Of a DNA stretch of 64,000 nt, positions 6,780 to 43,824 are shown piece by piece. Location: positions 109,393,652-109,457,651 of the forward strand of contig NC_067285.1 in NCBI RefSeq assembly GCF_020740795.1, given 5' to 3'. The position numbers and the translations under genes are program-made. Source of the stretch: Apus apus. Taxonomy: Eukaryota > Chordata > Aves > Apodiformes > Apodidae. The notes under the pieces are model-generated. The model made no database searches and was not told the DNA's origin. It saw only the letters and a program-made list of their open reading frames with translations. The first letter of the stretch is position 1, and each line of letters begins with the position of its first letter.

Positions 6780-9700
6780 CTTTTACATCTGCATCTTCGT
6801 CTTCTGGTTTCTAGGATGAAAAAGAAAACGTTTTAGTTGAAAGAGATGGAGTCACAGCTCAATAAAGAAATGCTGCAGCAAGGCAGGGCTGGCATTCCCA
6901 GCTTGAATGGAATTTTCATGTGAGTAACAGTAGCAGCCTCAGCCTGGGAACACTGGGAACACTGCTGTCTCCAGCAACTTTGGCACGTTGCTGAAAATCC
7001 ATTGACAGCAATTAATTTCCACAACTGGAGAGTGGCAATGATGCCACGCAGCGTGTAACCCAATGGAATGATGCTCTTCCCCCTCTTGGCTTTCCTGTCA
7101 TTACTTTGGGATATGTTTGGTAAAATACAATGTCCAGCCATTAACATTAGCACAAGGTAAATCTGTCCTTCAGGGCTCAGGTGGAAATAAATTGCAGATA
7201 ATGGGTTTTCCTTGCTGGTTCACATCAGCATTAAAAGGTAGAAATACATCACTGAGAGCCTGTGTCGGTTGTTACAGGTCACTGGGGAATCCTGGTGCAC
7301 ATGGAGGGCTCTTGGCTCCTGGTGACTTCAGAGGGAATTTGGACCATCTTGGGGTGCTTAGCCAGAGATTTTGCATCACTGCTTCAACCTTTGCAGTCCC
7401 TGAGCCTGTGTAATTAAGTGGCTCGTTTGGTTGCAGCTCGAGCTGCTCATGGGAGTCTCGGCGTTGGAACTTGCAGGCCCATTTTTAGCCCCTGAGACAC
7501 CAGCTCAAGGACCGTAGAGCCAAAGCAGTTTGATGGAGTAAGTGTTCTCTATTTATCATCTCTTTTTTTTTCCTTGTGCTGTAGAACTTGATAATTATGT
7601 CTCAGGCTAAGCCTGCTGGTGAGGAAGAGATGGACACTGATTTTTCTAGCCGTGTCCTTCTCCTGGGCTGACTGTGCCCTGGTTCTCAGATCCCTGCCTA
7701 AAGGACATGGCTAGAAGATCCATTCCCCTGAAGGACAGGGCTGTGGTTTTGGGCTGGAGGAATATCTACAGGGGGTTTAGGGGTGAGTCTTACGTTGGCA
7801 CAGCATGATGGTGATTGCCAGGGCCAAGAGGAGCAGGAGGCAGGTGACTGACAAGGGAACCCAGATCAGGATGTCACAGAAGTAATTCAGCTCTTTCTCC
7901 TTGCTGGTGTCTGCAGGAATAGAGAAGAGGAAAGGTCCTCCAGGTGGTCACAGCTGGTGTTAAGGCCAACTGTGTTGGAGCTAAGGGGCCTGCCTGGTGC
8001 TCAGTGAGGCTGGTGCTGAAGCAGAGGGCTTCCCCTGGCCTGCGAGGCAGAGGTGGGTGCCAGGCATGTGCACAGGTAGTCAAAAGTTTTTGTGTCCCTG
8101 GCTGGGGCTCAGACCAGCCCCAGCCCCCAGGGCTCTGCCCTCCCTCCACCTCTTCTTGATGTACCCAGTCATGAGACATCCTGAGGCTTTGGAAGTCATC
8201 CTTAGCCTTCCTACCTGGAAGGACATGTTGGGATTTAACCCTTCCAGCTGCACACACCCAGTTATCCAACCCTCACCAAATTTAAGGATTTTTCCTTCCC
8301 CCTCATCCCAAAAAGCCTGCAGGATCCTCCTTGGAGCCCATCTCTTCTCCTCTCCCTCCCTGGAGCTGGAATACCTGGAGCCGGGCTCTTCAGGCAGGGG
8401 TCCCTGGTGATGTCAGTCTGGTTGGTGGCTGCTGCTGTGGTGGGTGCTGCTGTGGTGGTGACTGTAAACAAAAATGAATGAATGTAGCATACAGGACAAC
8501 AAAATAAATCAGCTTCCTGCTGCCCTTCTACTCTCTCAGCCCTGCCAGGCCACGGCTGCTCCTATGGCCACTGTAGGGCTCTTCAAAGAGCCCCTTTTGG
8601 ATGATGACTCCCAGAGTGAAGGTCTCCCAAGGCCAAATAAGGAGTTGCAGGCTCCTCATTTCTTGCTTTCTGCCACCACCCTCCAAAAGCCTGAGTACCT
8701 GAGGTTGGGAGGACTTTTGGGCCCTACATGAGGTGAGGAAGGACAGGGTGGTGGACTTTGCTGTGGTCTTATCCCTTCAGAGCCACGAAAGAGCTGGAGA
8801 AGTGGGGATGGGGAGGTGGTGCTGGGTCTGGCTGGAAGCAGAGCCTCTGGCAGGAGGACCAGTGAGTTGGTCACAAGATGCCTTGAGCAAGCAAGCAGGG
8901 AAGAGGAGTTTGTGGGAGAGGGGACGGATTAAAAAGGGCAGAGGCAGGAGGTGCTGGGCATTTTGGCAGAGCTAGGCGAGGTTGGGTGGGGGTGTTACTG
9001 ACCTGGGAAGAAGGCAGGCTGGCCAGAGCTGAAGTACAGCATCTGGTTGCTGTTCATGAGGCAGAAATAGTTCCCCTCGTCCTGTGGCGTGAAGGACTTC
9101 ACTACCAGCCGGTAGATCGTGCCATCTTTCCATGCCCAGAAGCGTGTGGATGTCCTCTCATTCCTCTCAAAGGTGGTTCGGGACAGGGAAGAGATGAATA
9201 CAATGAAGTGAAGGGTCCCACCCATGTCCTGTCGGATCCAGAACATGCCAGAGTCATCCTTGTTGGTCAGACACTCCAGCTCCAGCTGTTCTCCCTCCTG
9301 GGGGTGCTTGATGTTCCTGTCACGAAACCTGGCTCTCATCTGGTACCTGTGGCCACGGATCCCAAGGCAGCCTGTGGGAGAGACATCCTCATGGGAACAG
9401 CTCAGGAAGAGCTGTGTCCCCTCTGTGCACACCTCCTTCACTGGCCATTCCTTGAATGTCAAGGAAGGACCATGGTGTCCAGGTGACCTGAAGGAGTCCT
9501 TGCTGGGATTGCGTGTGGAGGGTGCTCAGCAATCAGCCACCTGGGCTTTAGAGGTGGGTGCAGCCCTTCTGAAAAGCCTTTCAGCTGCCTTCCCAGGGAC
9601 GTTACCCCTTCCAGCTTGTCTGGTGTCTCCCTGGAACCTCAGGCTGCTAAATCCCCTGGTTTCCCCCTTCCCTGTCTCCTCCAGCAGCACTTTTCTACCC

Positions 9701-16609: not shown

Positions 16610-16791
16610 TTAACATTGTTGCAGGTCACTGGGGAATCCTGGTGCACATGGAAGGCTCTTGGCTCCTGGTGACCTCAGAGGGAATTTGGACCAGCTCCAG
16701 GTGCTTTGCTGCAGCATCAGCTGTTTGCCTTGGGAAGGATGAATTTTGGATGTGGCTCGTTGGTGTTTTCTTCGTGTTTTCCTTCCTGTTG
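16610..16791 (-). other. Possible tail exon for CD8A copy 2 (speculative)
   Basis: Reading leftwards from copy 2 exon 4, the next tidy acceptor (gcctgcag) is at 16797-16792. Joined in the phase left by exon 4 it opens a 59-codon frame to a stop at 16610. The frame starts with a basic stretch, STGRKTRRKHQR, recalling the polybasic start of the copy 1 tail but without the CxC motif. Most of it lies in DNA that copy 1 lacks or that is non-coding there. Chance is a real alternative; no transcript evidence is available here. Confidence 0.2.
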
Positions 16792-17571: not shown

Positions 17572-20009
17572 ATTGGCACAGCATGATGGTGATAGCCAGG
17601 GCCAAGAGGAGCAGGAGGCAGGTGACTGACAAGTGAACCCAGATCAGGATGTCACAGAAGTAATTCAGCTCTTTCTCCTTGCTGGTGTCTGCAGGAATAG
17701 AGAAGAGGAAAGGTCCTCCAGGTGGTCACGGCTGGTGTTAAGGCCAACTGTGTTGGAGCTAAGGGGCCTGCCTGGTGTTCAGTGAGGCTGGTGCTGAAGC
17801 AGAGGGCTTCCCCTGGCTTGCGAGGCAGAGGTGGGTGCCAGGCATGTCCACAAGTGCAGTGTGGGTGTCATCCCTATTGGAGAGGGTTTCTGAATGCCCC
17901 TCTCAACGTGTTCCTAGGGATTGAGGAGAACACGTAGCCAAAAGTTTTTGTGTCCCTGGCTGGGACTCAGACCAGCCCCAGCCCCCAGGGCTCTGCCCTC
18001 CCTCCACCTCTTCTTGATGTACCCAGTCATGAGACATCCTGAGGCTTTGGAAGTCATCCTTAGCCTTCCTACCTGGAAGGACATGTTGGGATTTAACCCC
18101 TCCAGCTGCACACACCCAGTTATCCAACCCTCACCAAATTTCAAGGATTTTTCCTTCCCCCTCATCCCAAAAAGCCTGCAGGATCCTCCTTGGAGCCCAT
18201 CTCTTCTCCTCTCCCTCCCTGGAGCTGGAATACCTGGAGCCGGGCTCTTCAGGCAGGGGTCCCTGGTGATGTCAGTCTGGTTGGTGGCTGCTGCTGTGGT
18301 GAGTGCTGCTGTGGTGGTGACTGTAAACAAAAATGAATGAATGTAGCATACAGGACAACAAAATAAATCAGCTTCCTCCTGCCCTTCTACTCTCTCAGCC
18401 CTGCCAGGCCACGGCTGCTCCTATGGCCACTGTAGGGCTCTTCAAAGAGCCCCCTTTGGATGATGACTCCCAGAGTGAAGGTCTCCCAAGGACAAATAAG
18501 GAGTTGCAGGCTCCTCATTTCTTGCTTTCTGCCACCACCCTCCAAAAGCCTGAGTACCTGAGGTTGGGAGGACTTTTGGGCCCTACATGAGGTGAGGAAG
18601 GACAGGGTGGTGGACTTTGCTGTGGTCTTATCCCTTCAGAGCCACGAAAGGGCTGGAGAAGTGGGGATGGGGAGGTGGTGCTGGGTCTGGCTGGAAGCAG
18701 AGCCTCTGGCAGGAGGACCAGTGAGTTGGTCACAAGATGCCTTGAGCACGCAAGCAGGGAAGAGGAGTTTGTGGGAGAGGGGATGGATTAAAAAGGGCAG
18801 AGGCAGGAGGTGCTGGGCATTTTGGCAGAGCTAGGTGAGGTTGGGTAGGGGGTGTTACTGACCTAGGAAGAAGGCAGGTACAAAGCTGAAGTACAGCATC
18901 TGGTTGCTGTTCATGAGGCAGAAATAGTTCCCCTCGTCCTGTGGCGTGAAGGACTTCACTACCAGCCGGTAGATCGTGCCATCTTTCCATGCCCAGAAGC
19001 GTGTGGATGTCCTCTCATTCCTCTCAAAGGTGGTTCGGGACAGGGAAGAGATGAATACAATGAAGTGAAGGGTCCCACCCATGTCCTGTCGGATCCAGAA
19101 CATGCCAGAGTCATCCTTGTTGGTCAGACACTCCAGCTCCAGCTGTTCTCCCTCCCGGGGGTGCTTGATGTTCCTGTCACGAAACCTGGCTGTCATCTGG
19201 TACCTGTGGCCACGGATCCCAAGGCAGCCTGTGGGAGAGACATCCTCATGGGAACAGCTCAGGAAGAGCTGTGTCCCCTCTGTGCACACCTCCTTCGCTG
19301 TCCATGCGGCGTGAGGTTGAATGTCAAGGAAGGACCATGGTGTCCAGGTGACCTGAAGGAGTCCTTGCTGGGATTGCGTGTGGAGGGTGCTCAGCAATCA
19401 GCCACCTGGGCTTTAGAGGTGGGTGCAGCCCTTCTGAAAAGCCTTTCAGCTGCCTTCCCAGGGACGTTACCCCTTCCAGCTTGTCTGGTGTCTCCCTGGA
19501 ACCTCAGGCTGCTAAATCCCCTGGTTTCCCCCTTCCCTGTCTCCTCCAGCAGCACTTTTCTACCCGGGCTCCCTTCCCATGGCTGCCCCGCGCTGGCTGA
19601 GGCGATGCTGCCGTGACCTGCACGCTGAGCGAGCAGACCCCCAAGTCAGCCTCCTTGGTTTGCTTTTCACAGTATCACAGTATCATTCCCGTTGGAAAAG
19701 TCCTTCAAGATCATTGAGTCCAACCACCACCCTAACTCTGCCACATCCATCGCTGATCCCTTTCCTCTGGCTCCACATCTGTCTTTTTTGATGGCTCTAG
19801 GGATGGTGGCTCAACCACCTCCTTGGATAGCCTGGATCACCAAGTCCAGCTCCTGCACCCCCCACCTCCCTTTGGCTGTTTATCCCAACGTCCTGGATTC
19901 AGTGGAAGGGGTTTACTTGCCCCTCCCGGCGAGTGCGATGCAGAACCCCGTGTCCATACTCACAGAGCTCCAGAGCCAGCAGAAGGAGCAGTGCAGGAGC
20001 CCTGGCCAT
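17572..20009 (-). CDS. CD8A: CD8 alpha chain, copy 2 (exons 1-4; no copy of the CxC tail exon found)
   Basis: Tandem paralogue of copy 1. Exons: 20009-19964 (signal peptide, same as copy 1), 19228-18863 (Ig V domain), 18320-18234 (hinge) and 17688-17572 (membrane span). All borders are GT-AG and phases agree, giving about 205 residues. It differs from copy 1 by a handful of residues: MTARF for MRARF, HPREG for HPQEG, one residue fewer near the V-domain end (YFSFVPAFF for [10 protein letters not shown]), ALTT in the hinge, and WVHLS for WVPLS at the membrane border. The open frame and intact splice sites indicate a live gene. The duplicated unit stops between exons 4 and 5, so the Lck-binding tail exon was not copied. 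Its transcript must use another tail, stop early by reading through the donor (adds only CKTHP then a stop), or splice onward to the single downstream exon at 6810-6780. CD8A paralogues are known in chicken. Confidence 0.85.
19668..19862 (-). repeat. CR1 LINE fragment in intron 1 of CD8A copy 2
   Basis: Reads 'cacagtatcattcccgttgg', then a 'gatcattgagtccaaccacc' block: the reverse complement of an avian CR1 3' end. The matching place in copy 1 (about 9806) lacks it and continues directly into 'ttcccttttggctgtttatc', so it entered copy 2 after the duplication or was lost from copy 1. Confidence 0.85.
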
Positions 20010-26900: not shown

Positions 26901-29900
26901 CCAATACAGTGCTCAAGGCATGACCACAGCAGAGCAAGTGCTGGTGGTAAAATGACTACCACATGCAGCTGACCTAGAATTGAGCTATTTTCTGCATTTT
27001 CTGCCTTACCCAGCCTCATAGGTCTTTTCGGAAAAACCCCAGAGCCCCCCCAACCCTGCATCTCTAAACTGGGAAGGCTCTACCCACACACACCACCCCT
27101 CGCCCGGGGGACCTCTTTGCAGCCTGCTGGGGGCACGTTTTGGAGCCCTGGGGGTGCTGCTTACCTACACTGAGCCGTGTCCCAGTGCCCAGGAGGAGCT
27201 GGGAGGACTGGGAGATGGAGCAGTAATAGGTGCCGTTGTCTGAGGCATGGAGCTGGCTGATGTGCAGGCGGTAGGAGCTGCGGGAACTCGCCCCGTGGAC
27301 ACGAAACTTCTCCTGGCTGATGTTTGTGCCATACACAGCTTTGCCCAACATGCTGGAAAACATCAAGAACTGGAAATTTTGCCTCTCCTGGCTCCAGCGG
27401 TACCAGTACACCCCAGTATGCTCCTTCTTCAGCTCACAGAGGATTTCTGTTTTATTGTTAGTTTGGGCTAAAATATGCTTTGGAGTCGGGGATAAAAGTA
27501 GATTCATACAGAAGCCTAAGGAAAAAGAAAAAAAAAAAGAGTCAGAAATATACAGTTATTAATTTATTGTCATTATTTTCTTCCACGCTAAGCACAGATT
27601 TCCTTTGTGGGCTTAAAAGGACCAAGTGGTCACAGACCAGGGGATCATGCAAGTGAGAAACGGGAGCATCTTTATCAGGATGCTCCCATATTCCCCCCGG
27701 AGCTTTTTTGGGTGCCCCAACTGGTTTTTGGTCAAGCCAAGTTATACAGGTAGAGTTTGCCTTGTGAACACTCAGCTGGAGAGGAGGCTCAGTGGGCAGG
27801 CAGAGGGTTGGGGGAAGGATTAGGAGGGTATCCTTGGGGCAGTATGTGCAGGGAAGGGCATCTCCACCTTCACCCCTCCTGCCCTCCTTTTCCCTCTCAT
27901 TTCTGGGTATGTTTCACCCCCCTTTCAACAGATTTCTTCTGAGCCTCTTAAATGATTTGCCAGATTTTTATTCTAACAGATGTAACACTGAGAAATGTCA
28001 TCTCAGGTGCATAAAAAGATCAAAACCATGCAAAACGTCTCAAAATGATCCAAATTGGTATTAGCTTTCAGAAAACATTATTTTTCTATGGATTTCCAGA
28101 CCTGGGGAAGGAGAGGGAGGGAGGGGTGGTGGAGAGGTTGAAAGCTTTTGTTTGGCATCACATCGTCCTGTTTGGGCTTTGCAGCTTGTGTGGAAATTAT
28201 CTGAGACGTGTTTGGCCCAGGCAGATGTGAGGGGTGTCTGTGTGTGAGCAAGGATGTGTCCTTGTGAAAAGGATAACAGGTGACTTGTGATCCTTTCTGT
28301 TCAGCAAACAGTCCTACAAAGATGCAGATACTCCAAGACCAAGTGAAAAACAGCCCTCTGAAGATAAGGGTGCTCTCTCTTCCCCCGTCTGTTTCCCAGG
28401 CGTGTTTTAAAGCTGTGCAAAAAAGCTCCACAAAACGTGGCTTTTTGGCTTTTTTTGCCTTTTTTTTTTCTTTTTTTACCTTAAAATGCCCCTATTCCTT
28501 CAAAATCCAAAGCTGCTGGTAGTGGTGGCTGCAAACAGCCCCACGCAGCCCTGCAGACCCACTGGTGTGGGAATGGATTTGAGTGGCCACAGGAACACCT
28601 GAAGCCACCTCTGTGGCTCATGGCCCTGATGTCTTCCATCTCCCCAGTGGGGACAAGCAGAGAAGAAGGCTCTGGTGACTGCCACAGGTTCAGAGATGTT
28701 CTCTGTCCCTGCATCAATGCCCCCCCATCACTGCTGAGGTGCTGCAGAGATGAGCAGCCTTCAGCCCTAATACTGTGGTGCCGAAATTCCGGCGCTGCAC
28801 GGTGGCAGCTGCAGCCTTTCACCACATCCTCTGGTGCTGAGACAGTATAAATGTCTCCTTGTTATTAAAATACATGATTTTCAGAGTTGTTGTTTTTTTC
28901 TTTTTCAGCAATCTTCCCAAATGTTGCTCTGGCGACCAGTCGTGTGGTTTTTTTAGGGGATGAACTGTGTGTGGCTGTGGGGCATGGTGGCTTCAGTGTC
29001 CCCTGAGGTCTGACTCTGCTGGGCACAAGAAAATCAACCCCATGAAAACCTTTTCCTTGAGGTATTGGAGAGATTTTTTAGATGAGTAAGAAGGGATGAG
29101 AAGGGATGCTAGAGAATGCTCAGCTGAGCTCTGAGTCAGTGGTAAAATTCCAGCAGGGTAAGCTGGGACAGAGTCAGAGCAGGAAAGCTCATCCTTGCCA
29201 CACCTTCATCCTCCAAAACCTCCCTGCTCCCTTACCTGGTGTATATTCTCACAGGATACCACAGGGAATCAGGGTGGGATAGGTTTGTTTCCATGTGCTT
29301 GGCCAGACCAGCCTGTAGCAGCTCAGAAAGGGTCCCTTTTGTCTTTGCACGTGCAGAGCAAACTAATTTATTGAGGTTTTGTCAGCAGGGACACCCCCCC
29401 CCCCCCCCGCCCCCATGTAGATCTATAGGATATTATCATAGAAGGATGGAATGCCTTAGAGGTCCTCTCCAAGCAAAGGCATTCTATCATTCCATGATAT
29501 TTTAATTGTACAGTGGTGCCAGTGAAGTGCCTTGGGATGTCTGGCAGGGACAACCTCAGCTATCACCCTAATACATACATTTAATGAGGGTTTCAAGCTC
29601 TCAACAATTTCCACCTAAGAACGGATGGCACAATTTGCCTGTAAAGCTTCGTTCTACCCCTTTGCTGCGACACCAACTGTATATATTCAGTCTAGACCTC
29701 CTGCAACAAGCAGAAGGCAGCCTGGTGTTGTAACACACCAATTCTAGCTGTGGCCCTTGAGAAACATTCAGCCCTTGGATAGATTTAGAAGTAAATTTTC
29801 TGGGATGTTGTTTGTCTGCACGTTTCACAGGCAGAGGAGACAGGTGCTACTTCAACTTCTCCATCAGCAGCTTCCCACAGTCTGTCTGCACTAAGAGGGT

Positions 29901-30600
29901 GCAGTTAAAACAAACTGTGTGGTGTCTATTCCATTATATATTGCACTGAGGAGAGGAGAGGAGAGGAGAGGAGAGGAGAGGAGAGGAGAGGAGAGGAGAG
30001 GAGAGGAGAGGAGAGGGAGAAGTGAAGAGAAGCAAAGCAAAGTGAAGCAAAAAGAAGACTATTTCAGTTGGAAGGGGCCTAGACTAGATATTAGAAAGAA
30101 TTTCTTTACTGAAAGAGTGGTTGGACACTGGAACAGGCTGCCCAGGGAGGTGGTGGAGTCACTATCCCTGGAAGTGTTTAAAATAAATGTAGATACAGTG
30201 CGTAGCAACATGATTTAAGCACTGAATGGGTAGATTAGGTTATGGTTGGTGGATTTAGGTTATGGTTGGACTTGATCTTCAAGGTCCTTTCCAACCAGGA
30301 TGATTCTGTGATTCTGTGAATGATCATCTCAACTGCCTGACCTTTTCAGGGCTGGCCAAAAGCTTATGCATGTTATTGTCCAAAATCATGCAGTGATAGG
30401 TAATAATATCCTGTAGATCTATACTGTGCCCATAGATTTAAACTGTCACCATCTGGATGCTTTGCAACACACCCTACGTGCTGAAGTGGGGTGGAGGAGA
30501 GGCTCCAGCATGATTCTAGGTGCCCACAACCCTTAAGAGATGTGTCCCTCTTACCTGGCATCTGGAGGAAGAGGCAGAGATGGAGCCACGGCTGGGCCAT
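23925..30600 (-). CDS. CD8B: CD8 beta chain, complete five-exon gene
   Basis: Beta chain of the CD8 co-receptor on T cells; pairs with CD8 alpha and raises the avidity for MHC class I. Exons: 30600-30555 (start and signal peptide [16 protein letters not shown]), 27515-27165 (Ig V domain), 24826-24731 (hinge, [18 protein letters not shown]), 24172-24083 (membrane span, [20 protein letters not shown]) and 23965-23925 (tail [12 protein letters not shown], then TAA). The lengths 46+351+96+90+41 give exactly 208 codons, and every border is GT-AG in phase, which supports the model. The V domain has the cysteine pair (EILCEL, GTYYCS), a tryptophan pair (YWYRW), sequons NKT, NIS and NGT, and a J-like end GTGTRLSVG typical of CD8B. 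The short Arg-rich tail matches the mammalian pattern and lacks a CxC motif. Length is close to the human 210 residues. A CR1 sits in intron 2. Confidence 0.93.
26390..26901 (+). repeat. CR1 LINE 3' end in CD8B intron 2
   Basis: About 510 bases of CR1 3' region in plus orientation, antisense to CD8B. Landmarks are 'gaagacaggctgggagagtt', 'ggttgcccagggaggttg', and a 'ccattctatgattctatga' tail. Open frames on either strand across it are derived from the repeat and are not host genes. Confidence 0.95.
29394..29414 (+). repeat. C-run
   Basis: Fifteen C's, a G, then five C's, in CD8B intron 1. Such a tract is prone to length errors in sequencing and to G-rich structure on the minus (transcribed sense) strand. 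Confidence 0.9.
29434..29498. repeat. Hairpin-forming inverted repeat in CD8B intron 1
   Basis: Arms 29434-29457 and 29475-29498 are reverse complements at 21 of 24 positions, with a 17-base loop. The size fits a small-RNA precursor, but the 'ccttagaggtcctctcc' loop resembles CR1-end vocabulary, so a chance pair of truncated repeats is as likely. Confidence 0.55.
29949..30016 (+). repeat. (GAGAG)n microsatellite, about 13 units
   Basis: A pure five-base purine repeat that grades into a longer purine-rich tract up to about 30060 and abuts a CR1. It lies in CD8B intron 1 and gives the minus-strand transcript a long pyrimidine tract. Confidence 0.97.
30079..30320 (+). repeat. CR1 LINE 3' end in CD8B intron 1
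   Basis: Sense-orientation CR1 3' part: 'aacaggctgcccagggaggt', 'aaggtcctttccaacc', then a 'gattctgtgattctgtga' tail. The purine repeat sits just before it. Confidence 0.9.
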
Positions 30601-34329: not shown

Positions 34330-34740
34330 ATGAGTGAGTGGTGACTAATCCTGGGCCCCCCCTTAAAAGAGATAAGGGGCAGTGCAGCTGCTCCCATGTG
34401 ATTTCGACCTCCCTAATCAGTTCCAAGGAGGATAAGGAAAGACAAGGCAAGCGTCCTTGGGAAGACAGAGGGAGGGATGCAGCACCTGCAGGAAAAACAA
34501 CACCGAAGAAGTAAGCAGAGGTGTTATCAGCCCCAAACAACGACCTGCCATGGCTATAAAAGGCCACCCGGACGAGACCTCGCCAACACCTTTGCCTCAA
34601 AGGTGCCGAACCTGCCGGACCTCTGCGGTGATCGTCTCCAGGATCCCGGGACTGCCAGGACATCCAGCCAAGGATTGGTGAGATCTTATTATCGGGCTCC
34701 TACTACACCTCTGCTTCTCTTCACCCCTTCCCATATCCCT
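34330..34740 (+). repeat. 5' LTR (approximate ends)
   Basis: Defined by block homology to 43440-43824 and to 51868-52264. Shared blocks include 'gcagaggtgttatcagcc' and, further on, 'ggtgagatct' versus 'ggtgaggtct'. A TATA box lies inside. The left end is placed at the TG of 'tgagtgagtggtgac' from the alignment with the lone LTR; the right end is uncertain by tens of bases. Confidence 0.7.
34555..34561 (+). promoter_or_regulatory. TATA box of the 5' LTR
   Basis: 'ctataaaagg' lies just after the conserved 'gtgttatcagcc' block of the LTR and about 400 bases before gag, where a retroviral promoter belongs. The other two LTR copies have no equally good match at the aligned place. Confidence 0.6.
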
Positions 34741-34961
34741 TCCCCGTCCCCCTCCCCGGGAGCCGGTGGGTCGCGGCTGCCGCCCACCGGGCCTCGGCCA
34801 CCCGTCCCCACCTCCCCCTTCCTTTGCTACCAGGCTCGGCACCTCCCCGGGGGGGCACTTTTTGGAGGGGTGGGTGGTGGGGCCGCAGGTGTGTTGCTGG
34901 TGCTGGTGTTATGGTAGCTTTGCCCTGAGAAGGAGCCGTTTCGGATCTCGTTCCCCTCACG

Positions 34962-36659
34962 ATGATGAGTGACATTGTTAGCAACTGGAAGCTGGAGCAG
35001 TTTGTGCTCCAGAAGTGTCTCCCCCCAGTTTGGTCCCCGGGGTCTTTCCAGGGACCAGAGGCGTACCAGCAGCTCTGCCAGCAGTGGGAGAGCTGGTCGG
35101 AGGAGTCCAAAAAGCCCAAACCCACCAATAAGTGCAAGAAGCGTGCGGCTTTGCAGGGTTTGTTGATGGTGAGCAGGGAGTTGTCTAAGTTGTTGAAGGA
35201 GGCTCTTGAGAACGTGCAGACTTTGGAGCAGGCCAAGGTCGAGCTGAAAATGCAGGTGGACAACCTGCGGGCAGAGGTGCAGGGTTTGTGCGGGGACTCC
35301 CTGCGGAGCGCGGTGGAGATCACCCGGCTGGAGAGCAAGCTGGGCTATGAGAAGCTGAAAACAGAGGAGCTGGAGAAGGAGGTTGGCAAATGGATCGGGG
35401 AGACCCACGACGCGCAGAGCGCCGTGCGGGCGGTCCTGCAGGACGTCCAGCGGGACCGGGGCGCTGGCCCTGACCATAAGGTGTGCCACGCCAAGATCCA
35501 GGAGCTGCAGGCGGAGCTGGGGGTGTCGAGGGGTATCGTGGCTGCCATTCAAGGCAAGCGGAGCCGGTTCGGGAACGGGGAGGGAGAGGACTCCTTGGAC
35601 CCGCACACGCCCCACTATGACTATGAGGATGATGTGTGGGGTGCCAACGGCCCCACCAGGCCGTCCCCCTACGCTCCTCTGCGGGAGGAGGTGTGCCAGC
35701 TGCAGGGAGGGGAGGTGGAGGCTTCCAAAATTAAAAAGAGCCCCCCCGATGAGCCAGCCAGCCACGGCCCACTCCAGGCCATAGATACTAACAGGGCTGT
35801 GCTCTGGTTTACCCCTGAGCAGCTCAAAACGGTGGGGAAGATGCTGGGCCCGTTGACAAAGGAGACTGCAGTCAACTGGCTGTCCAGGGCTCAGCAGCTG
35901 CCCAGGTCCCAGAGTGGCAACTCAGTGAGTGACCTGATAGACGTGGTGAGAAAGTGCATGAAACCAGATGATTTTGCGGCTCTGCCGGGGGATGTGCAGA
36001 TGGGCAATGTCCAGGACATCGGGCACGTCCAGTCAGCTGTGCTGAAGCTGTTTTTCCCAGAGGTCAACCCCTTAGTGCTCTTCCACCAGGAGAAACAAAA
36101 CCCGGAGGAGCGTCCGGATGCTTATGTTAACCGTAAAAAGATGCTCTACCAGATGGCTGGGCTGCCCGGCTCAAAAGAGTCCCCCCTTGATTTTGACAGG
36201 CCCGAATTCAAGGAGCCTCTGGTGGTGGGGCTGACCCCCCCATTGCGGGTGATTGCTGGTGGGGATGCAGCCAGGAAGCCGCTGTCAGAGCTGGAGCAGA
36301 TCCTGACCCAGAATTTTGAGCTGCAAAAGCAGGCATTCCCAGGGTACATGTTAGGGGGGAAGAAAGGCAAAACCTCAGCCATGTCCTTCCAAACTGGGGG
36401 GATGAGAAAAATGCAAGGAGACAACCGAAAAGAACCTGATGGCAAGGGTGGTTCAGGCAAGGAGAACCAGCAAGGGATGAGGTTTCAGAAGTCCAACCTG
36501 TGGCGGGCCGAGCTGAGGAAGCGCCTGATAAAATACGAGAAGCAGGAGGACATCGACGGGTTGCCGGATGCGGAGCTCTTCCGAAAACTGGCCCTGCACG
36601 AGGTCAAAAAGCACAGCAGCTCCAACCCGATTGACCCGGGGTCTAAGGCTCAGCAATAG
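34962..36659 (+). CDS. gag: Retroviral Gag, 565 codons
   Basis: Structural polyprotein of the fossil provirus. Start at 34962, with a second ATG in the next codon. Parts by eye: an N-terminal basic segment; a long predicted coiled coil at about residues 72-145 (heptad-like, rich in Leu, Glu and Lys); an acidic, proline-rich linker at about 200-260; a capsid-like region from about residue 280 (VLWFTPEQLKTVGKMLGPL) with a later segment reading NPEERPDAYVNRKKMLYQM that resembles a major homology region; and a basic, Gly/Lys-rich C-terminal part. The frame ends in TAG and continues in frame as pol. The coiled coil recalls the ENS-1/ERNI Gag-derived protein of chicken, but that is from memory and not tested. 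The large minus-strand frame at 34827-35765 is its shadow. Confidence 0.85.
   Translation: MMSDIVSNWKLEQFVLQKCLPPVWSPGSFQGPEAYQQLCQQWESWSEESKKPKPTNKCKKRAALQGLLMVSRELSKLLKEALENVQTLEQAKVELKMQVDNLRAEVQGLCGDSLRSAVEITRLESKLGYEKLKTEELEKEVGKWIGETHDAQSAVRAVLQDVQRDRGAGPDHKVCHAKIQELQAELGVSRGIVAAIQGKRSRFGNGEGEDSLDPHTPHYDYEDDVWGANGPTRPSPYAPLREEVCQLQGGEVEASKIKKSPPDEPASHGPLQAIDTNRAVLWFTPEQLKTVGKMLGPLTKETAVNWLSRAQQLPRSQSGNSVSDLIDVVRKCMKPDDFAALPGDVQMGNVQDIGHVQSAVLKLFFPEVNPLVLFHQEKQNPEERPDAYVNRKKMLYQMAGLPGSKESPLDFDRPEFKEPLVVGLTPPLRVIAGGDAARKPLSELEQILTQNFELQKQAFPGYMLGGKKGKTSAMSFQTGGMRKMQGDNRKEPDGKGGSGKENQQGMRFQKSNLWRAELRKRLIKYEKQEDIDGLPDAELFRKLALHEVKKHSSSNPIDPGSKAQQ
36657..36659 (+). other. Amber codon between gag and pol (read-through site)
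   Basis: gag stops with TAG followed by G, and the same frame runs on into pol with no ATG near the join. In-frame amber read-through is how gammaretroviruses such as MLV make Gag-Pol. So this stop is a family feature. Confidence 0.75.
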
Positions 36660-39600
36660 GGCTGCCAGGCACCCGCATCGCCCCTTTTTGTGGCACCGAT
36701 TAAGACCGATTCGTGGGGGCGCCTGATAGTTGATGTAACTATTGGAGGAGGGGTGCTTGGACAAGTGATGGTAATTGATACTGGTGCCTCTTATTCAATT
36801 CTGAACCTGGCCCCTGGCAAAGCCGGGCTCTTCCAAACCTCTGAAATCATTGAATTGACGGGGCCAAACGGCCAGAAATCCTCTGTGCCCTTCACTGGGC
36901 CCGTACCCTTTGAAATTGGGACTGCCAAAGGGTCTGAAAAATTTGGGAAAATGGAAATGAAGGGAAAGCCAGGGATTTTAGCCATCTCTGCGCTGACAGC
37001 TATGGGGGTGGTGGTGGACTTGGCAAACCAAGCGCTGTTACACTGCCCTCAGAGTGACGTGCCTGTCATCCCGGCGAGCCACAGGGTGATGGCAGTGAAA
37101 GCCCCTGAGCTCCTTGTCCACCCTGAGTGGGAACCCCGGGTGAAACGGGTCACAGAGCAGTTCCCCCAAGTCTGGGCACGAAGCAAGCTGGACTGCGGGC
37201 AGATTGATGCTGTCGTGGCAGTCAAAGGGCCGGATCCCCCTCCTCAGCCACAGCCGCAGTACCCGGCTGAGGCTGCGGACGGGTTGTGGGACACCATCAA
37301 AACCTTGCTGGAGCAGGGGGTGCTGGTGGAGCAGCAGAGCACCTGCAACGCTCCGGTGTGGCCCCTGCGGAAAGCTGATGGGAAAACATGGAGGCTGATG
37401 GTTGACTTCAGCGCCCTGAACCGTGTCACCCCACTGCGGACCTGCGCAGTGGCCAAGTACCCCGACATCATGGCTGCCATCTCCCAGGGTTCTGAGTGGT
37501 TCTCGGTGCTCAGCCTGACCAGCCCATCCTTTGCCATCCCCTTGCACCCTGACTCCTGGCACAAGTTTGCCTTCACCCTTCAAGGACAGCAATTTGCCTT
37601 CACCAGAGTCCCCCCGGGCTTCAACAACACCCCCGCCATCTGCCACGCGCACGTGGTGAGGATGTGGGAGAAGCTCAGCCACCGGGAGAGCGTGCTGTCC
37701 TGCGCCGGTGACATCCTCATCCACACCCGGACCAAGGAGGAGAACCTGGAGGTGCTGGCAGAGGTGCTGGAGGCTGTCCAGAAGATGGGGTTCAGGATCA
37801 GCCCCACAAAGGCCCAGCTGTGCTGGAAGGAGGTCTCCTACCTGGGGGTGACCCTGGGGGAGGAAGGGCGCTCCCTGGAGAAGCAGAGGGTTGAGCTAAT
37901 ACGGAAGGTGTCAGCACCAGCCGATGCCACTACCCTGAGGTCCTTCCTGGCTCTCCTCAGGTTCTCCAGGGAGTTTGTCGAGGGCTATGCAGAAAAAGCT
38001 GCCCCCCTCTGCCACCTCCTGAGGAAGGACACCCCCTGGGAGTGGGGGCCAGAGCAGGATGAGGCGGTGAAGGCTTTGAAGGAGAGTGTGATGCGAGCCC
38101 CCATGCTGGCATGTCCCCAGGGGGACAGGCCCTATGCCCTCCAGCTGGTCAGCACAGGGAGGGGGCTGCAGGCCACCCTGAGCCAGCAGCACGGTGCCAT
38201 CCTCCTCCCCGTTGCCCACGCCTCTCGCCTCCTGACGCCAGCCGAGCAGCAGCTCACCGACTACGAGAGGGAGGTTTTAGCCTTGACCTGGGCCGTGCAG
38301 CACTGGGACTACCTGCTGGGGCCAGCCCCGGTGCTGCTGAGAACCTCCCGCACCCCGGCGAGGTACCTCTTGTCGGGCAAGGGGGACGAGTGTCCCCTGC
38401 GCCGCCCCAGAATGGCCAACTGGGCGTTGGCGCTGACCGACAAGGAAGCCCGTGGGGAAGCGAGGGAGGCCTCTCCCGGTGCTTACCGGGTGTTAATCAG
38501 CGGGGAGAGGGACGGGGAGGAGTCGGGGGGGCCCCTGGCCGAGCCCGGGCTGCGGCGGGCGCCCCTGTTTGAGAGCGGCCTCAGCCTGGCGGAGGCCAAG
38601 GACAGAGGCTACGTCGTGTGGTTCGTGGACGGGTCCAACTACCACGAGGAAGGGGTGCCCTACACGGGCTACGCCGCCGTCAACCGGGCCACCGGGGAGG
38701 TGGTGAAGGGGAAGTGCCTGCCCCACTCCATCCAGGCTGCCGAGCTGGTGGCGGTGACGGCCGCCCTGGAAAACACTCCGGCCGACCAGCCCCTGGCCAT
38801 ATTTTCAGACTCGGGTTGGGTGGTGCGGGCGGTGCTGGAGTGGCTGCCGCTCTGGAGGGAGAGGGACATGCAGTCGGCCGACGGCAAGCCTGTCACCTAC
38901 GCCAAAAAGCTGCTGTACCTCGCCAGGCTGGCGGAGCAGAGGCAGCGCCCGGCCCAGATCATTAAGGTCAAGGCCCACAAGAAGGGAACAGAGGAGGCCA
39001 AGTGGAACAAGGAGGCGGACGCCAAAGCCAAGCAAGGCGCGAAGGAAGGGCTGATGTGGAAGGCCAGCAAGCCCTCAGAGAATGGCCCTGTGTCAGTGGC
39101 TGCTAGTAGACACTGGGAGAATGTGGACCTGCTGGGCTTGCAGGCACAGGACCCCAGCATCCGGGAGTTAGCGAAGGGCAGGGAGTACAAAGGGTGCAGG
39201 GTGTGGAAGGACATCTCAGGGCTGGTCCTGGCACGGAGGGAGGGAGCAGACTTCCCAGTCTGGGTGGTGCCTGAGCTCCTCCGGACTGAGCTGGTGGCCC
39301 TGGCTCATGAGCAGGGGCATCTGGGGACAGACAAGACCATGGCGAGGCTGCAGGGTGCTGGGTGGTGGCCTGAAATGAGAGACGATGTGGACAGGTATAT
39401 CAGCAATTGCCTGACATGTGCAGCCAACAATCCCGATGCCAAAACAACCAAAGACCTCCTGGGCCACCAGAGAAGTTCTGGGCCGTGGAGCAAGTTGCAG
39501 ATGGAGTTTATTGGCCCCTTGCCCCAAACAGCCCAAGGCAACAGGTACTGCCTGGTGATCAGCGACAACTTCACCAAGTGGGTGGATGCGTTTCCAACTC

Positions 39601-40334
39601 GAAACAACACGGCCAGTGCCACAGCAAAGATCCTGGTAGAGCATGTCTTCTCACGGTGGGGTGTCCCAAAGGAGATCGACTCAGACCATGGCCAACGCTT
39701 CATTGCAGAAGTCACAAAAGGGGTGTGCCAAGCCCTGGGTATCAAGCAAAAGCTTCACATCACAGGGCATTTTCAGAAGCCCGGGTCAGCAGGGGGGCCC
39801 AACCAACCACTGAAGACAGCACTGAGAAAGCTCGTGAACCAGCAAAGGAAAGACTGGGATCAGAAGCTCCCACTGGTCCTGCTGGCGTTACGGGGGGCTG
39901 TGGCTTCTCAAGTGCCCTCTCCCCAAAAGGTGTCTCCTGCCAGAGACCTGAAGCTGCTGGGACACTGGCAGCAAAGAGGGGAGCCTCCAGATGAACTGCA
40001 GCCCCGCGTCCTGATGGACAGGTGGGTCCAGGATGTTCTGAGGACGGTGTTGGCTACATACCACCACCTCGCCTCGGTGCAGGAGACCAACATTCCCAAG
40101 ATGGACAAGCAGTTGGGAGCGCTGCTGCGCCCTGTGGAGTGGAACACAGGGGACCTGGTGACGTATCGGGAGGTTAGAGAGAAAAACCAGGTGCTGGCAC
40201 CTCAATGGCTGGGGCCTGTTAGGGTTGTGAACAAGGCCAGCCCCTCTGTGTACCAGGTAGAAGTCAGAAAGGGGGCAAAAATGCAGGAAAAATGGCTCCA
40301 TTCTTCACAGTTAAAAGCATGGAAGGGAAATTAA
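36660..40334 (+). CDS. pol: Retroviral Pol: protease, reverse transcriptase, RNase H, integrase
   Basis: One open frame of about 1,224 codons directly after the amber codon. Domains in order (residues counted from 36660): aspartic protease at about 15-130 with VIDTGASYSIL; reverse transcriptase at about 190-550, entering at WPLRKADGKTWRLMVDFSAL; a connection and RNase H part at about 640-800 with VWFVDGSNYHEEG; integrase from about 870 with an HHCC zinc-binding segment (HEQGHLGTDK to CLTCAANN), then the core (QMEFIGPLPQTAQGNRYCL, FTKWVDAFPTRN) and a C-terminal domain ending near 40334. The order PR-RT-RH-IN and the RNase H/integrase style are class I. GC content is high over the whole frame. 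Some enzyme motifs look unlike the working consensus, so enzyme activity should not be assumed. Confidence 0.87.
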   Translation, partial: GCQAPASPLFVAPIKTDSWGRLIVDVTIGGGVLGQVMVIDTGASYSILNLAPGKAGLFQTSEIIELTGPNGQKSSVPFTGPVPFEIGTAKGSEKFGKMEMKGKPGILAISALTAMGVVVDLANQALLHCPQSDVPVIPASHRVMAVKAPELLVHPEWEPRVKRVTEQFPQVWARSKLDCGQIDAVVAVKGPDPPPQPQPQYPAEAADGLWDTIKTLLEQGVLVEQQSTCNAPVWPLRKADGKTWRLMVDFSALNRVTPLRTCAVAKYPDIMAAISQGSEWFSVLSLTSPSFAIPLHPDSWHKFAFTLQGQQFAFTRVPPGFNNTPAICHAHVVRMWEKLSHRESVLSCAGDILIHTRTKEENLEVLAEVLEAVQKMGFRISPTKAQLCWKEVSYLGVTLGEEGRSLEKQRVELIRKVSAPADATTLRSFLALLRFSREFVEGYAEKAAPLCHLLRKDTPWEWGPEQDEAVKALKESVMRAPMLACPQGDRPYALQLVSTGRGLQATLSQQHGAILLPVAHASRLLTPAEQQLTDYEREVLALTWAVQHWDYLLGPAPVLLRTSRTPARYLLSGKGDECPLRRPRMANWALALTDKEARGEAREASPGAYRVLISGERDGEESGGPLAEPGLRRAPLFESGLSLAEAKDRGYVVWFVDGSNYHEEGVPYTGYAAVNRATGEVVKGKCLPHSIQAAELVAVTAALENTPADQPLAIFSDSGWVVRAVLEWLPLWRERDMQSADGKPVTYAKKLLYLARLAEQRQRPAQIIKVKAHKKGTEEAKWNKEADAKAKQGAKEGLMWKASKPSENGPVSVAASRHWENVDLLGLQAQDPSIRELAKGREYKGCRVWKDISGLVLARREGADFPVWVVPELLRTELVALAHEQGHLGTDKTMARLQGAGWWPEMRDDVDRYISNCLTCAANNPDAKTTKDLLGHQRSSGPWSKLQMEFIGPLPQTAQGNRYCLVISDNFTKWVDAFPTRNNTASATAKILVEHVFSRWGVPKEIDSDHGQRFIAEVTKGVCQALGIKQKLHITGHFQKPGSAGGPNQPLKTALRKLVNQQRKDWDQKLPLVLLALRGAVASQVPSPQKVSPARDLKLLGHWQQRGEPPDELQPRVLMDRWVQDVLRTVLATYHHLASVQETNIPKMDKQLGALLRPVEWNTGDLVTYREVREKNQVLAPQWLGPVRVVNKASPSVYQVEVRKGAKMQEKWLHSSQLKAWKGN

Positions 40335-40351
40335 CGGGGCTGGAGAGCCCG

Positions 40352-40370
40352 TCTTGCTTCTGTTTTGCAG
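40352..40370 (+). promoter_or_regulatory. Splice acceptor before env
   Basis: A pyrimidine tract 'cttgcttctgttttgcag' ends 10 bases before the env ATG and just after pol. It fits production of a spliced subgenomic env message. The matching donor should lie near the gag leader and was not fixed. Confidence 0.75.
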
Positions 40371-40380
40371 ATAAAGGAAA

Positions 40381-43005
40381 ATGGAAGGCGATTGTGACCG
40401 GCGGGAAGGGCGAACTTCGTGGCATCACCAGCCCTGTTTGTGCTGCGGGGAAATTGCTTTGAAATTTCTGATTGCAGGATTTGCTTTGCTTTATGGTATG
40501 TGCTTAGTGCTGAGTCCCCAGCGTGCCCCACCAGCCCATCAGCACCTCAGACAAAAAGTCACTCGTTCCCACTTAGAAAAGCACCCTGACACATGGGCCA
40601 CCGCCCAGCACAGGGTTAGGAGGTACCCAAAAACTGAGACTGATTGGCCCTGGTCTCAAGCTTACATGAAATATACGGGAAGTATGGGATTAAATTCTAA
40701 CAAAGGCTTGAATTTGTCAACGGTGGTTATGCATGGGACAGAGGCCTACTTGGAAAACGAGTGGAGCTGGGATAGCACAAACAGACTCCCACAACTACTG
40801 GGGAAGGTGGGACAAGAAATAAAGGTAGGGTGCAGGGTAATTAATGGATCCACTTATCAACGGGTAACTCAAATCTCTGTCACCGAAATCAAAACTAAGA
40901 AGAATCAGAAAAAAAACTGTGCCGTGGAAAAATTGGACTGTTGGTGCAATTTTACTTTGGTCCAGCCAGTCTTTGTGGTCTGTCTCTGGGCACACAAAAG
41001 CGTGGGGCTGTCCTTTAAATTTAAGATTAGCACCACGATGCCCTCCTTTGCTGCCGTTAAGATCCCCAAGTGCCATTTTTTGGCCTGGCATGCAGCTCAA
41101 TACGCTGAGGTTGGCAACCAGGTAAAACTGGAAATTCAATACTCCCAAGAAAGTGTAACTGACCCCAAGCAAATTGATGGCACCACCATGACTGTCTCTG
41201 CCCCTAACGGCCACAAGTGGGTCGTGCCTGTAAAATGCCTCCACGAGAGCAAAAGGCTTAATAGATCTGAATTAAGCTCAGAGGCTGCATGGTATCATCA
41301 GGATTATGGACACTGCCAAAACCTGGTCATAAACCTCCAGGTATTGTGTCGAGGAAATCTGAGCATAGAAATGTCCCCCAAATTTGGAGGAAAGTGGTGG
41401 ATAGGAGGCCCTGAAGGATTTAAAAAAGAGTTTACCATCATTCCTGTCCTGCGCCCTTTTGTTTCCAAAATAGGCCCTTATGTAGTCAAGAAAAATCACG
41501 TCCAAGAGCTGTTGACCGCGCCTGTCCGGTCACTGAAGAAGGTGGTGTTGTCCCTGTCCACTGTTAATATTTCATCTGTCAGACCACACTGTTCCCCCTT
41601 CCTATCCACCCTCCACACAGGCTGGCTGGCCTGGCTCCACAGCCGTTCCATCCAGGGCACCCGGGCCAGAAGAGACCTGCTGGCCACAGCGCTGGGAGGA
41701 GGAGGTGCTGGGCTGGGGGTCCTCAACAGCATGAATGTTGAGGTCTTGGCCAACAAGTTGGAAGCTGTCACCTCAGGCGTGCAGGGCCTCCTCAGCCCCC
41801 TGAATTCATCCCTGGCCAGCCTTGGGATGGGGCAGTGGCTTGTGTCAGAAGTGTTGCCCACCTGGGAACAAATAAGTGAGAAAGACCACCAGGTGCTGTT
41901 GCGAGCGCTGGGCATCGAACAAAATAACGTCTCCCTTGCTCTTAGTTGCATCCAGGCCCAGGTGTGGGTGCAGAGTGTCGTTGCAGGTATCCTGAGAGAT
42001 GGTGACAACGGCGTCCTCCCCACCGAGATCCGGAAGATCGTGTGGGACGCGGCCACGGAGAAGGAGCGGCAGCTCCAAGCCTGGTGGAGGCTTGTCAACT
42101 TCACCCACGACCAGGTCCACAATGTCGTCATCGCCCACGTCCTGACGGTGGCAGAGGCTCGCATCGAAAAGGTCTACCCCATCGTGGCCCTGGGGGTTAA
42201 CACAAACGGGTCTGTGGTCTACCCCCTGGACCACCGGATGTGGGCGAGGGTGTCCGGTGGGAAATGGCAATCGGTGGATCTGGAAGCCTGCATTTTGGAA
42301 AGGGGGCTGGGATTCATATGCGAAGATGATGCCCTTAAGGCGAGCGACGTTTGCTTTGACACCAAAGAAGGGGTGTGCCATTTTGAGATCAACCCCCAGA
42401 GCAGCAACCAAACCGTGTTAGTGTACGTAGGGAAAGGGTGCGTGTGCTTCAGAACGGTGTGCAAATCCGTGCAAATTAACGAGGCTTATAACCAGACCGT
42501 GTTTAACTACTCCAATATGTGTGCTTGCAACGTAGCTATTATTAGAGGCTGTGACTTTGTGTACAGACCACCCGTATTTACCAGCCAGTTGCTAATCAGA
42601 AACTACACCTTGTATCGTAGTATAACCCCGACCCCCATCGGGATGAATCTGTCTCTTGTAAAAGAAATGTTAGAGCATGCCAAATTGCAGCAGCTGTTAG
42701 AAAATGCTAAGGCAGAAGCGAAGAAGATCCTGATAACTGTACATCACGATGGCAGTGTTATCAAGCAGGTGATGGAACGAATTAAGAGGGTGGGGGAACA
42801 CCACTGGTGGGAGATTTTCTTTGGCTGGTCCCCCACGGCCACCGGCATCTTCAACGCGCTGCTGCACCCTGTCGTAGTGATACTGCTCACGCAGATCTGT
42901 GTGTGCTTTGCCATGGTAGTGACTTGTTACTGGATGAGGCAGGTGAAGCTCTGCATTGACAAGCAGGTGGAAGGACTAGGGCTGGCCAAGCGCCTCCTGC
43001 CATAG
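40381..43005 (+). CDS. env: Retroviral envelope, 874 codons
   Basis: Surface and transmembrane glycoprotein of the fossil provirus, in a different frame from pol. The ATG sits in a good context (aaaATGG) right after the acceptor. Visible parts: a hydrophobic signal-like segment at about residues 27-46 (LKFLIAGFALLYGMCLVL); a Cys-containing surface subunit; a basic cleavage-type site, TRARR, at about 427-431; next a Gly-rich hydrophobic stretch like a fusion peptide (LLATALGGGGAGLGVL); a long ectodomain with many N-glycosylation sequons (NNV, NFT, NGS, NQT, NYS, NYT, NLS); a membrane span at about 830-853 (VVVILLTQICVCFAMVV) and a short tail. It is long for class I Env, as in epsilon-like elements and Ovex1. 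The frame looks whole despite the age implied by the LTRs. Confidence 0.87.
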   Translation: MEGDCDRREGRTSWHHQPCLCCGEIALKFLIAGFALLYGMCLVLSPQRAPPAHQHLRQKVTRSHLEKHPDTWATAQHRVRRYPKTETDWPWSQAYMKYTGSMGLNSNKGLNLSTVVMHGTEAYLENEWSWDSTNRLPQLLGKVGQEIKVGCRVINGSTYQRVTQISVTEIKTKKNQKKNCAVEKLDCWCNFTLVQPVFVVCLWAHKSVGLSFKFKISTTMPSFAAVKIPKCHFLAWHAAQYAEVGNQVKLEIQYSQESVTDPKQIDGTTMTVSAPNGHKWVVPVKCLHESKRLNRSELSSEAAWYHQDYGHCQNLVINLQVLCRGNLSIEMSPKFGGKWWIGGPEGFKKEFTIIPVLRPFVSKIGPYVVKKNHVQELLTAPVRSLKKVVLSLSTVNISSVRPHCSPFLSTLHTGWLAWLHSRSIQGTRARRDLLATALGGGGAGLGVLNSMNVEVLANKLEAVTSGVQGLLSPLNSSLASLGMGQWLVSEVLPTWEQISEKDHQVLLRALGIEQNNVSLALSCIQAQVWVQSVVAGILRDGDNGVLPTEIRKIVWDAATEKERQLQAWWRLVNFTHDQVHNVVIAHVLTVAEARIEKVYPIVALGVNTNGSVVYPLDHRMWARVSGGKWQSVDLEACILERGLGFICEDDALKASDVCFDTKEGVCHFEINPQSSNQTVLVYVGKGCVCFRTVCKSVQINEAYNQTVFNYSNMCACNVAIIRGCDFVYRPPVFTSQLLIRNYTLYRSITPTPIGMNLSLVKEMLEHAKLQQLLENAKAEAKKILITVHHDGSVIKQVMERIKRVGEHHWWEIFFGWSPTATGIFNALLHPVVVILLTQICVCFAMVVTCYWMRQVKLCIDKQVEGLGLAKRLLP

Positions 43006-43200
43006 TCAAGGGCAAGACTGGGTTGGCCTCTGTGTTTGCCACCAAGAAGAACCTTGAGCTCCGCTGTTGGCTGCAACCCAGTAGGCGTTGAGCGGTGGGG
43101 ACACACGCCATACCAGACCTTGATGTGAGGGATGGTCTCCTCTGTTATAAGAGGGCCATCCAGGAGGGGACGGCAGGCCAAGCCTGCAGCTGGCATGAAT

Positions 43201-43435
43201 CACAGAATGGTTGAGGTTGGAAGGGACCTTTTGAGGTTATCTAGTCCGACCCCCTGCTCAAGCAGGGTCACCTAAAGCAGAATGCCCAGGACTGTGTCCA
43301 GTTGGGTTTTAACTATCTCCACAGATGGAGACTCCACAACTTCTCTGGGCAAACCCGTTCCAGTGTTTGATCACCCTAACAATAAAATAGCAAGAATAAG
43401 CATAAGTAACTTGTCTTTGAACCTCCTATCTTTAA
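43201..43435 (-). repeat. CR1 LINE fragment at the start of the 3' LTR
   Basis: 'cacagaatggttgaggttgg', then 'ggagactccacaacttctct' and 'ccagtgtttgatcaccc': the reverse complement of a CR1 3' end. It lies between the env end and the recognisable body of the 3' LTR, so it landed in or beside the LTR after the provirus was in place. Confidence 0.92.
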
Positions 43436-43439
43436 ATGC

Positions 43440-43824
43440 TGTGTGAAAAAGTTGCTCTTGTGTGATTTAAGACTCCTTAAGCAGAGGAGAAGGAAAGCCA
43501 AGGACAGTGTCTGTGGAAGAAAAGAGAAGGGAACATAATGCCTGAGCATGGAAAAGCACCCACTGAAGATGGCAGAGGTGTTATCAGCCTCAAAGGCTTG
43601 GAAAGCTGATAAAAGATGAGCAGAACAAAAGACATTGTGATCACCTTGGACTTAAAGGAGCTGAACACATATGGACCTTTGCAGCAACTATCTCTGGGTT
43701 CCCAAGACTCCCAGAATGTCTGGCCAACCTTCTGGTGAGGTCTGGTTTTGGAAGCCTGGACGCTACCACTTTGCTTTGCCTAGTTGTGCATGTACTCAAT
43801 AAAATTTAACTGTTAGAGGACAAA
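43440..43824 (+). repeat. 3' LTR (body; first bases lie left of the CR1)
   Basis: Shares ordered blocks with the 5' LTR and the lone LTR: 'gtgattt..gactcct', 'ggcagaggtgttatcagcct', 'gttcccaagactccc', 'ttctggtgaggtct' and 'ctagttg', ending near 'aactgttagaggaca'. A polyadenylation signal is present. The extreme left end is probably near 43196, with the CR1 between it and the rest. Divergence from the 5' LTR is large. Confidence 0.75.
43798..43803 (+). terminator. AATAAA polyadenylation signal of the 3' LTR
   Basis: aataaa lies about 20 bases before the inferred LTR end, the expected place for the signal that ends proviral transcripts. Confidence 0.65.

Follow-up and report, generated by a model that had tools for sequence, protein, structure and literature searches.

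The closest described system to the locus reported here is chicken Ovex1 (chromosome 4, LOC422925/LOC422926; FJ406461, FJ406462), whose domestication was proposed in 2009 (PMC2717909). Chicken Ovex1 encodes a 565-residue Gag ended by an amber stop, an in-frame Pol and an ORF3 of 873 amino acids (aa; 874 in zebra finch), and lies between CD8 and SMYD1 (PMC2717909). We analysed 64,000 nucleotides (nt) of Apus apus DNA (assembly GCF_020740795.1, contig NC_067285.1, positions 109,393,652 to 109,457,651, forward strand), hereafter the window, in which an old provirus spans positions 34330–43824. This provirus very probably represents a non-chicken orthologue of OVEX1 that selection has kept. The original prediction had named Ovex1 as an analogue; the link was right, but the locus is Ovex1 itself in another bird and not merely similar to it.

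Two other groups bear comparison. CrocERV37-39 and tuatara SpeV, likened here by published description, belong to a retroviral lineage reported to cluster with Ovex1 or to resemble it; unlike Ovex1, these reptile endogenous viruses are not described as host genes in the available part of that account (PMC4299795). The syncytins, co-opted env genes that are discussed in PMC2717909, resemble Ovex1 in having an env-position frame kept by the host and expressed in reproductive tissue.

Identity of the locus as Ovex1

The layout of the locus agreed with that of chicken Ovex1: a Gag of 565 aa, a TAG, an in-frame Pol and a separate ORF3, together with TATA and polyadenylation signals (the latter at nt 9190 in chicken), the splice acceptor spacing, an antisense CR1-like piece in the 3′ untranslated region (UTR) and CD8 neighbours (PMC2717909; Table 1). 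Published sequence motifs were then compared with the translations. The Gag major homology region (MHR) was matched at 20 of 20 positions, at residue 377, while 200 shuffles reached 8; the nuclear localisation signals were matched at 12 of 12, at the published residues 50–61, where 200 shuffles reached 6. The leucine zipper of Gag begins at residue 88, as published (88–109), and further motifs were matched in protease (11/12), RNase H (7/7 and 4/4) and the C terminus (6/7). Differences from chicken were also found, with MVID here against MLID in protease, WLGPVRV against WMGPVRV, an ORF3 of 874 against 873 aa, and a Gag-Pol that comprises 1789 residues and the stop codon, where chicken has 1786 (PMC2717909). 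The motif differences and the Gag-Pol length thus indicate that this is not the chicken copy.

The three open reading frames (ORFs) amount to 2,663 codons, close to the 2,660 originally predicted. They were said to lie in three reading frames, but only two are used, since a lone TAG is all that separates gag from pol within one frame; ORF3 lies in the other, without overlap. Stop-to-stop runs were 576 (gag), 1224 (pol) and 876 (ORF3) codons, whereas the longest stop-free run in 200 dinucleotide shuffles of the provirus was 368 codons, with a median of longest runs of 231. An origin of these frames by chance was therefore rejected. On the minus strand opposite gag (34827–35921), 364 codons are likewise free of stops; this antisense ORF was rejected as a gene, being at the chance level of the shuffles.

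Pfam assigned Pol to the reverse transcriptase (RT), RNase H and integrase families. Gag and ORF3 matched no Pfam family at E 0.01, and at E 1 just three weak Gag matches appeared (E 0.14 or more). Searches of PDB with phmmer gave one weak prM match for ORF3 (E 0.0036) and three weak matches up to E 1 for Gag (best E 0.0042), all taken as chance. No match was found in an Rfam scan of the window at gathering thresholds or between a 2.3-kb pol piece and phage records, no relative of Pol, Gag or ORF3 in IMG/VR, and none of Gag, the one query used, in a prokaryote genome collection. A single-sequence AlphaFold model of Gag, whose quality (mean pLDDT 44.8) was too low for a structure search, draws a helix at residues 56–164; the published coiled coil of Ovex1 Gag (residues 62–114) falls inside this span (PMC2717909).

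Age, selection and expression

The two long terminal repeat (LTR) remnants could be joined by a gapped local alignment in 15 blocks, in which 222 of 313 aligned bases (71%) were identical. The alignment scored 174, whereas 300 dinucleotide shuffles gave no more than 47, and each part stood out alone: U3 with 122/160 identical bases (score 109 versus 40 in 300 shuffles) and R with 88/129 (71 versus 31 in 300 shuffles). In chicken, the repeat is just 120–122 bp with 73% identity, is taken as R, and U3 was not recognised (PMC2717909). The present locus therefore retains a longer LTR pair: about 330 bp can be recognised, U3 included, and the 5′ copy carries a TATA box. From the chicken TATA-cap spacing of 23 nt (PMC2717909), the cap site is expected at about 34584.

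The Kimura two-parameter (K2P) divergence of the LTRs was 0.375, a value that local alignment tends to underestimate. If birds are assumed to accumulate 2.5e-9 to 1.5e-9 substitutions per site per year, the insertion would date to 75–125 million years ago, taken here as about 100 million years. The predicted old age was thus borne out, whereas the accompanying claim that the LTRs share only short blocks gave way to an alignment across both remnants. Over such a time, frames free of selection would be expected to decay. Under a neutral model at 0.18 substitutions per site (assumed transition bias 4, CpG factor 8), about 49 stops were expected over the three ORFs (10 in gag, 21 in pol and 18 in ORF3), plus frameshifts; no stop was observed and no frameshift was seen. 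The predicted holding open of the frames was accordingly supported.

A younger provirus, with LTRs driven apart by recombination or gene conversion and frames still open through recency, would also account for intact frames and for CpG content above that of the flanks (see below). This explanation is scarcely credible: a neutral copy is already down to a 5% chance of zero stops at 0.011 substitutions per site, and the CR1-like piece and the CD8 neighbourhood match the published chicken and zebra finch loci (PMC2717909). A recent provirus was rejected on the 71% LTR identity and the loss of RT and integrase catalytic residues described in the next section.

Selection on Ovex1 is documented by published ratios of nonsynonymous to synonymous substitution (dN/dS) between chicken and zebra finch, which are 0.08 for Gag, 0.18 for Pol and 0.16 for ORF3 (PMC2717909). 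Proteins of Ovex1 are reported from turkey and duck, from 18 Neoaves and from four reptiles, and purifying selection is reported for 207 ORF3 sites, 18.8% of the avian alignment (PMC5006616). Our claim of selection rests on the published dN/dS together with the absence of decay at this locus; host use, which the original prediction had considered plausible, stays plausible on the sequence.

Expression has been described in chicken. Both RNAs were demonstrated, with expression in the left gonad cortex and in granulosa cells (PMC2717909); RNA-seq found LOC422926 left-biased in the gonads of both sexes at E4.5–6.5 (PMC10572726), and its expression is low in large yellow follicles (PMC8944860). 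In the 2009 paper, translation of Ovex1 remained to be shown (PMC2717909). Tandem mass tag (TMT) mass spectrometry has since listed C7ACT2/LOC422926, annotated as "Unknown", among the top ten decreased follicle proteins (F6/SY 0.476, P 0.00066; PMC7367319), and our literature search found no paper tying this entry to the retroviral origin of Ovex1. Given the strong ovarian transcription published (PMC2717909) and a protein function that is unproven, the locus might be thought to work mainly as an RNA or regulatory element with its proteins unused. We consider this very improbable in view of 2,663 codons kept open, dN/dS well under 1 for each product (PMC2717909) and the protein product listed by mass spectrometry (PMC7367319).

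Table 1. Positions of the retroviral and neighbouring features in the window
Feature	Position	Strand	Basis
5′ LTR remnant (U3 with TATA box, plus R)	34386..34716	+	gapped alignment with 43450–43776
TATA box (TATAAA) within LTR repeat	34555..34560	+	sequence pattern
Possible splice donor (GGTGAGAT)	34678..34679	+	placed by chicken position, about 95 nt after the inferred cap
gag (565 aa)	34962..36659	+	ORF listing; ends with TAG at 36657–36659
pro-pol (1224 codons, stop to stop)	36660..40334	+	ORF listing
Probable splice acceptor (TTTTGCAG)	40369..40370	+	10 nt before ORF3 ATG at 40381
ORF3 (874 aa), Env-like by position	40381..43005	+	ORF listing
Antisense CR1-like 3′ fragment in 3′ UTR	43197..43364	−	71% match, E 3.9e-12, to repeat 26722–26895
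3′ LTR remnant	43450..43776	+	gapped alignment with 34386–34716
Polyadenylation signal (AATAAA)	43798..43803	+	pattern; another AATAAA at 43381
CD8A-like V-set exon, upstream neighbour	18858..19397	−	E 5e-42 to CD8 alpha (PDB 5eb9); V-set found in two frames upstream, placed by pattern
Second CD8A-like V-set exon, in recent tandem duplication	8998..9525	−	V-set hit and pattern
V-set exon, tentatively CD8B	27067..27555	−	V-set in one frame, placed by pattern; CD8 beta chain 3dmm, E 6e-12, behind five T-cell receptor (TCR)/antibody chains

Pol enzymes and ORF3

As originally predicted, Pol enzyme motifs departed from the working consensus. RT motif A reads VLSLT where the RT chains of XMRV/MLV type used for comparison have VLDLK, and motif C reads AGDI where they have YVDD, so that the motif A aspartate and the second motif C aspartate, two of the three catalytic aspartates, are lost. 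The same loss of two of three is published for chicken and zebra finch (PMC2717909). The integrase triad is E-x59-D-x35-G, with two of its three residues changed; chicken has E-D-E, sharing the first acid E, and zebra finch E-E-E (PMC2717909), and the change of E to G at the third position is therefore an addition in this lineage. With two RT aspartates lost and two integrase triad residues changed, replication by this provirus would be very unlikely. A replication-competent endogenous retrovirus would have unaltered RT and integrase catalytic sites and two full, matching LTRs; here those sites are degraded and the LTRs agree at 71% over 313 bases.

A chicken RT that "appears intact" and might transpose other repeats has been suggested (PMC5006616). 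An intact RT is not supported for the present locus, given the lost aspartates, which also argue against the transposition of other repeats by it; nor does PMC2717909 support the suggestion for chicken. The "gamma-like" label of the original prediction is doubtful for Pol: Ovex1 RT has been grouped with tuatara SpeV near SnRV and spumaviruses (PMC2717909), although all three products have also been called gammaretroviral (PMC5006616). In the comparison with solved structures, the RT matched chains presumably of gamma (XMRV/MLV) and foamy type, and the integrase found its best match in foamy virus (prototype foamy virus, PFV).

Catalytic residues of the other two enzymes were retained: Asp 606 of the protease, in VIDTGAS, and D1223, E1261, D1283, D1353 and H1339 of RNase H. 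Pol might thus be kept for its protease and/or RNase H acting on cellular substrates, with RT and integrase as decayed passengers. Of the six catalytic residues in RT and integrase, four are altered (one from D to E), while the protease aspartate, the four RNase H acidic residues and the histidine are all kept; a split as extreme has a chance of 0.045, a count over 11 residues only that were picked after seeing the data. The published constraint, moreover, is weaker on Pol than on Gag (PMC2717909), and the protease stretch (36660–37259) had no Pfam match, and we regard this retention of enzymes as unlikely. A broader version, which we consider slightly less likely still, is that the whole retroviral programme is kept (LTR promoter, splice, readthrough and three polyproteins), with protease and RNase H chemistry selectively retained and reverse transcription and integration discarded; supporting cells of the ovary would thereby gain processed Gag particles or RNase H activity.

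ORF3 would be expressed from a spliced RNA. The published Ovex1 ORF3 starts 11 bp after the splice acceptor (PMC2717909), and this spacing was found here as TTTTGCAG, 10 nt and then the ATG; the chicken intron begins at nt 97 of the transcript (PMC2717909). Hydrophobic stretches lie at residues 25–43 and 831–849 and are followed by a short tail, in agreement with the published description (PMC2717909). ORF3 could be the selected product, blocking related retroviruses by receptor interference, with Gag and Pol either carried along or serving as capsid-targeting restriction factors. Such interference was proposed together with expression in many tissues (PMC5006616) and is discussed in PMC2717909, and an open ORF3 with a C-terminal membrane anchor would suit it. 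Gag and Pol, however, are also open here, Gag has the lowest published dN/dS (PMC2717909), and ORF3 has neither a Pfam match nor the C-x6-CC loop, for which the pattern C-x5-7-CC was searched over ORF3; the proposal is therefore held to be doubtful. The missing loop also sets ORF3 apart from the syncytins, as does the keeping of all three retroviral frames and not env alone. Fusion activity is not among the traits known for ORF3, and judged from its sequence a syncytin-like, fusogenic role would be unlikely.

Domestication weighed, and the surroundings of the locus

CpG content was raised over the provirus. The observed/expected ratio was 0.36–0.61 in the three ORFs at every codon phase, 0.43–0.55 at the codon 3-1 junction, where C to T is silent. 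The 5′ LTR and leader reached 0.56, and the flanks stood at 0.15 upstream and 0.11 downstream. In GC-matched 500-base windows, the provirus (34386–43005) had mean values of 0.40–0.47 and the flanks of 0.11–0.24, a two- to fourfold difference. This could reflect long-lasting low germline methylation.

A series of observations weighs against the reading of the locus as a selected, ovary-expressed Ovex1 gene or against parts of it. For CpG, the ratio was just 0.17 in the 3′ UTR and 3′ LTR, and the windows overlap, with some flank windows at 0.35–0.39 and provirus windows down to 0.20–0.29; raised CpG may also be an ordinary trait of GC-rich coding exons. For the retroviral anatomy, purine runs of at least 11 were absent from the stretch separating ORF3 from the 3′ LTR match, although the match itself contains two (at 43483 and 43515), and a strict donor pattern found no donor in 34400–34960, the GGTGAGAT site being placed by position. 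As to the folded element that readthrough of gamma/epsilon type would have 3′ of the stop, the 100 nt from the TAG onward gave a minimum free energy no better than shuffles (z −0.17; 81/200 as good or better), weak evidence because only nested folds were modelled and pseudoknots lie outside the model; a stable fold downstream of the TAG is not supported. ORF3 lacks the envelope loop considered above. For selection and expression, the dN/dS figures are the published ones for chicken and zebra finch; Ovex1 RNA occurs at low level in all adult chicken tissues studied, the ovary being highest (PMC5006616), which weakens a purely ovarian role; and the proteomics table does not specify which Ovex1 product gave the peptides (PMC7367319). 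For synteny, the 81 frames of at least 70 aa in the 20 kb downstream gave no sign of SMYD1, which flanks the published locus on its far side, so that the check covers the CD8 side only, and a zf-met zinc-finger gene, to which all clear downstream matches belong, stands where SMYD1 was expected. The flank scan took in 271 of the 373 frames of at least 60 aa, namely those of at least 70 aa (the other 102 measure 60–69 aa); the exons of SMYD1 may be shorter than that, or the gene may sit outside the window. Domestication nevertheless remains well supported, and the same orthologous locus was already published in 2009 (PMC2717909).

The CD8B label in Table 1 is tentative because TCR and antibody chains outscore CD8 beta in PDB. 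A tandem duplication (7196–10720 and 16537–20313) carries the CD8A-like V exon; its larger blocks are 97.7–98.2% identical and two shorter edge blocks 84–89%, so the duplication is mostly recent. Downstream, the zinc-finger gene (56053–58851, minus strand) has three C2H2-type finger patterns, with zf-met in three downstream frames, and ZNF346 is the nearest solved relative of one finger. A perfect (GAGGA)n array of 13.8 copies occupies 29948–30016. The repeat at 26722–26895 ends near (ATTCTATG)n, a tail that we take to mark CR1 3′ ends, and the piece in the 3′ UTR is called CR1-like through this repeat of the window and not through a CR1 or CR1-Y4 consensus. A further (ATTCTATG)n run, of the CR1 3′-end type, lies at 62643–62668. 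An antisense CR1-Y4 fragment in the 3′ UTR is published for chicken and zebra finch Ovex1 (PMC2717909).

Taken as a whole, the evidence makes it most likely that the host keeps this locus as a gene expressed in the ovary. In the model that we propose, insertion of the provirus next to the CD8 genes would date back some 100 million years, and the host would since have retained it as a gene. From its old 5′ LTR promoter two RNAs would arise, one full-length and the other spliced once; the former would yield Gag and, by occasional readthrough of the TAG, presumably Gag-Pro-Pol, while the latter would yield a membrane-anchored ORF3 protein without cell-fusing activity. That readthrough occurs, that this species translates the RNAs and that the products have a function are steps that we infer. 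A structural or regulatory function in ovarian supporting cells, mainly through Gag, is favoured tentatively, as a possibility that may well prove wrong, because of the coiled coil, the capsid-type MHR, the nuclear localisation signals and the lowest published dN/dS.

Besides a copy from one more species, which differs in small ways, the present analysis adds to the earlier description that the recognisable LTR pair is longer and takes in the TATA box, that integrase has lost one more residue, that CpG is raised across the frames and that published follicle proteomics lists the locus under an "Unknown" entry. Retroviral domestication usually involves a gag or an env alone. That gag, pro-pol and the env-position frame should have been kept together over some 100 million years, with degraded replication enzymes, is unusual, as was already argued in 2009 (PMC2717909). 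The added points make function easier to test, by way of the product translated in follicles and of whether birds in general conserve the protease and RNase H residues.

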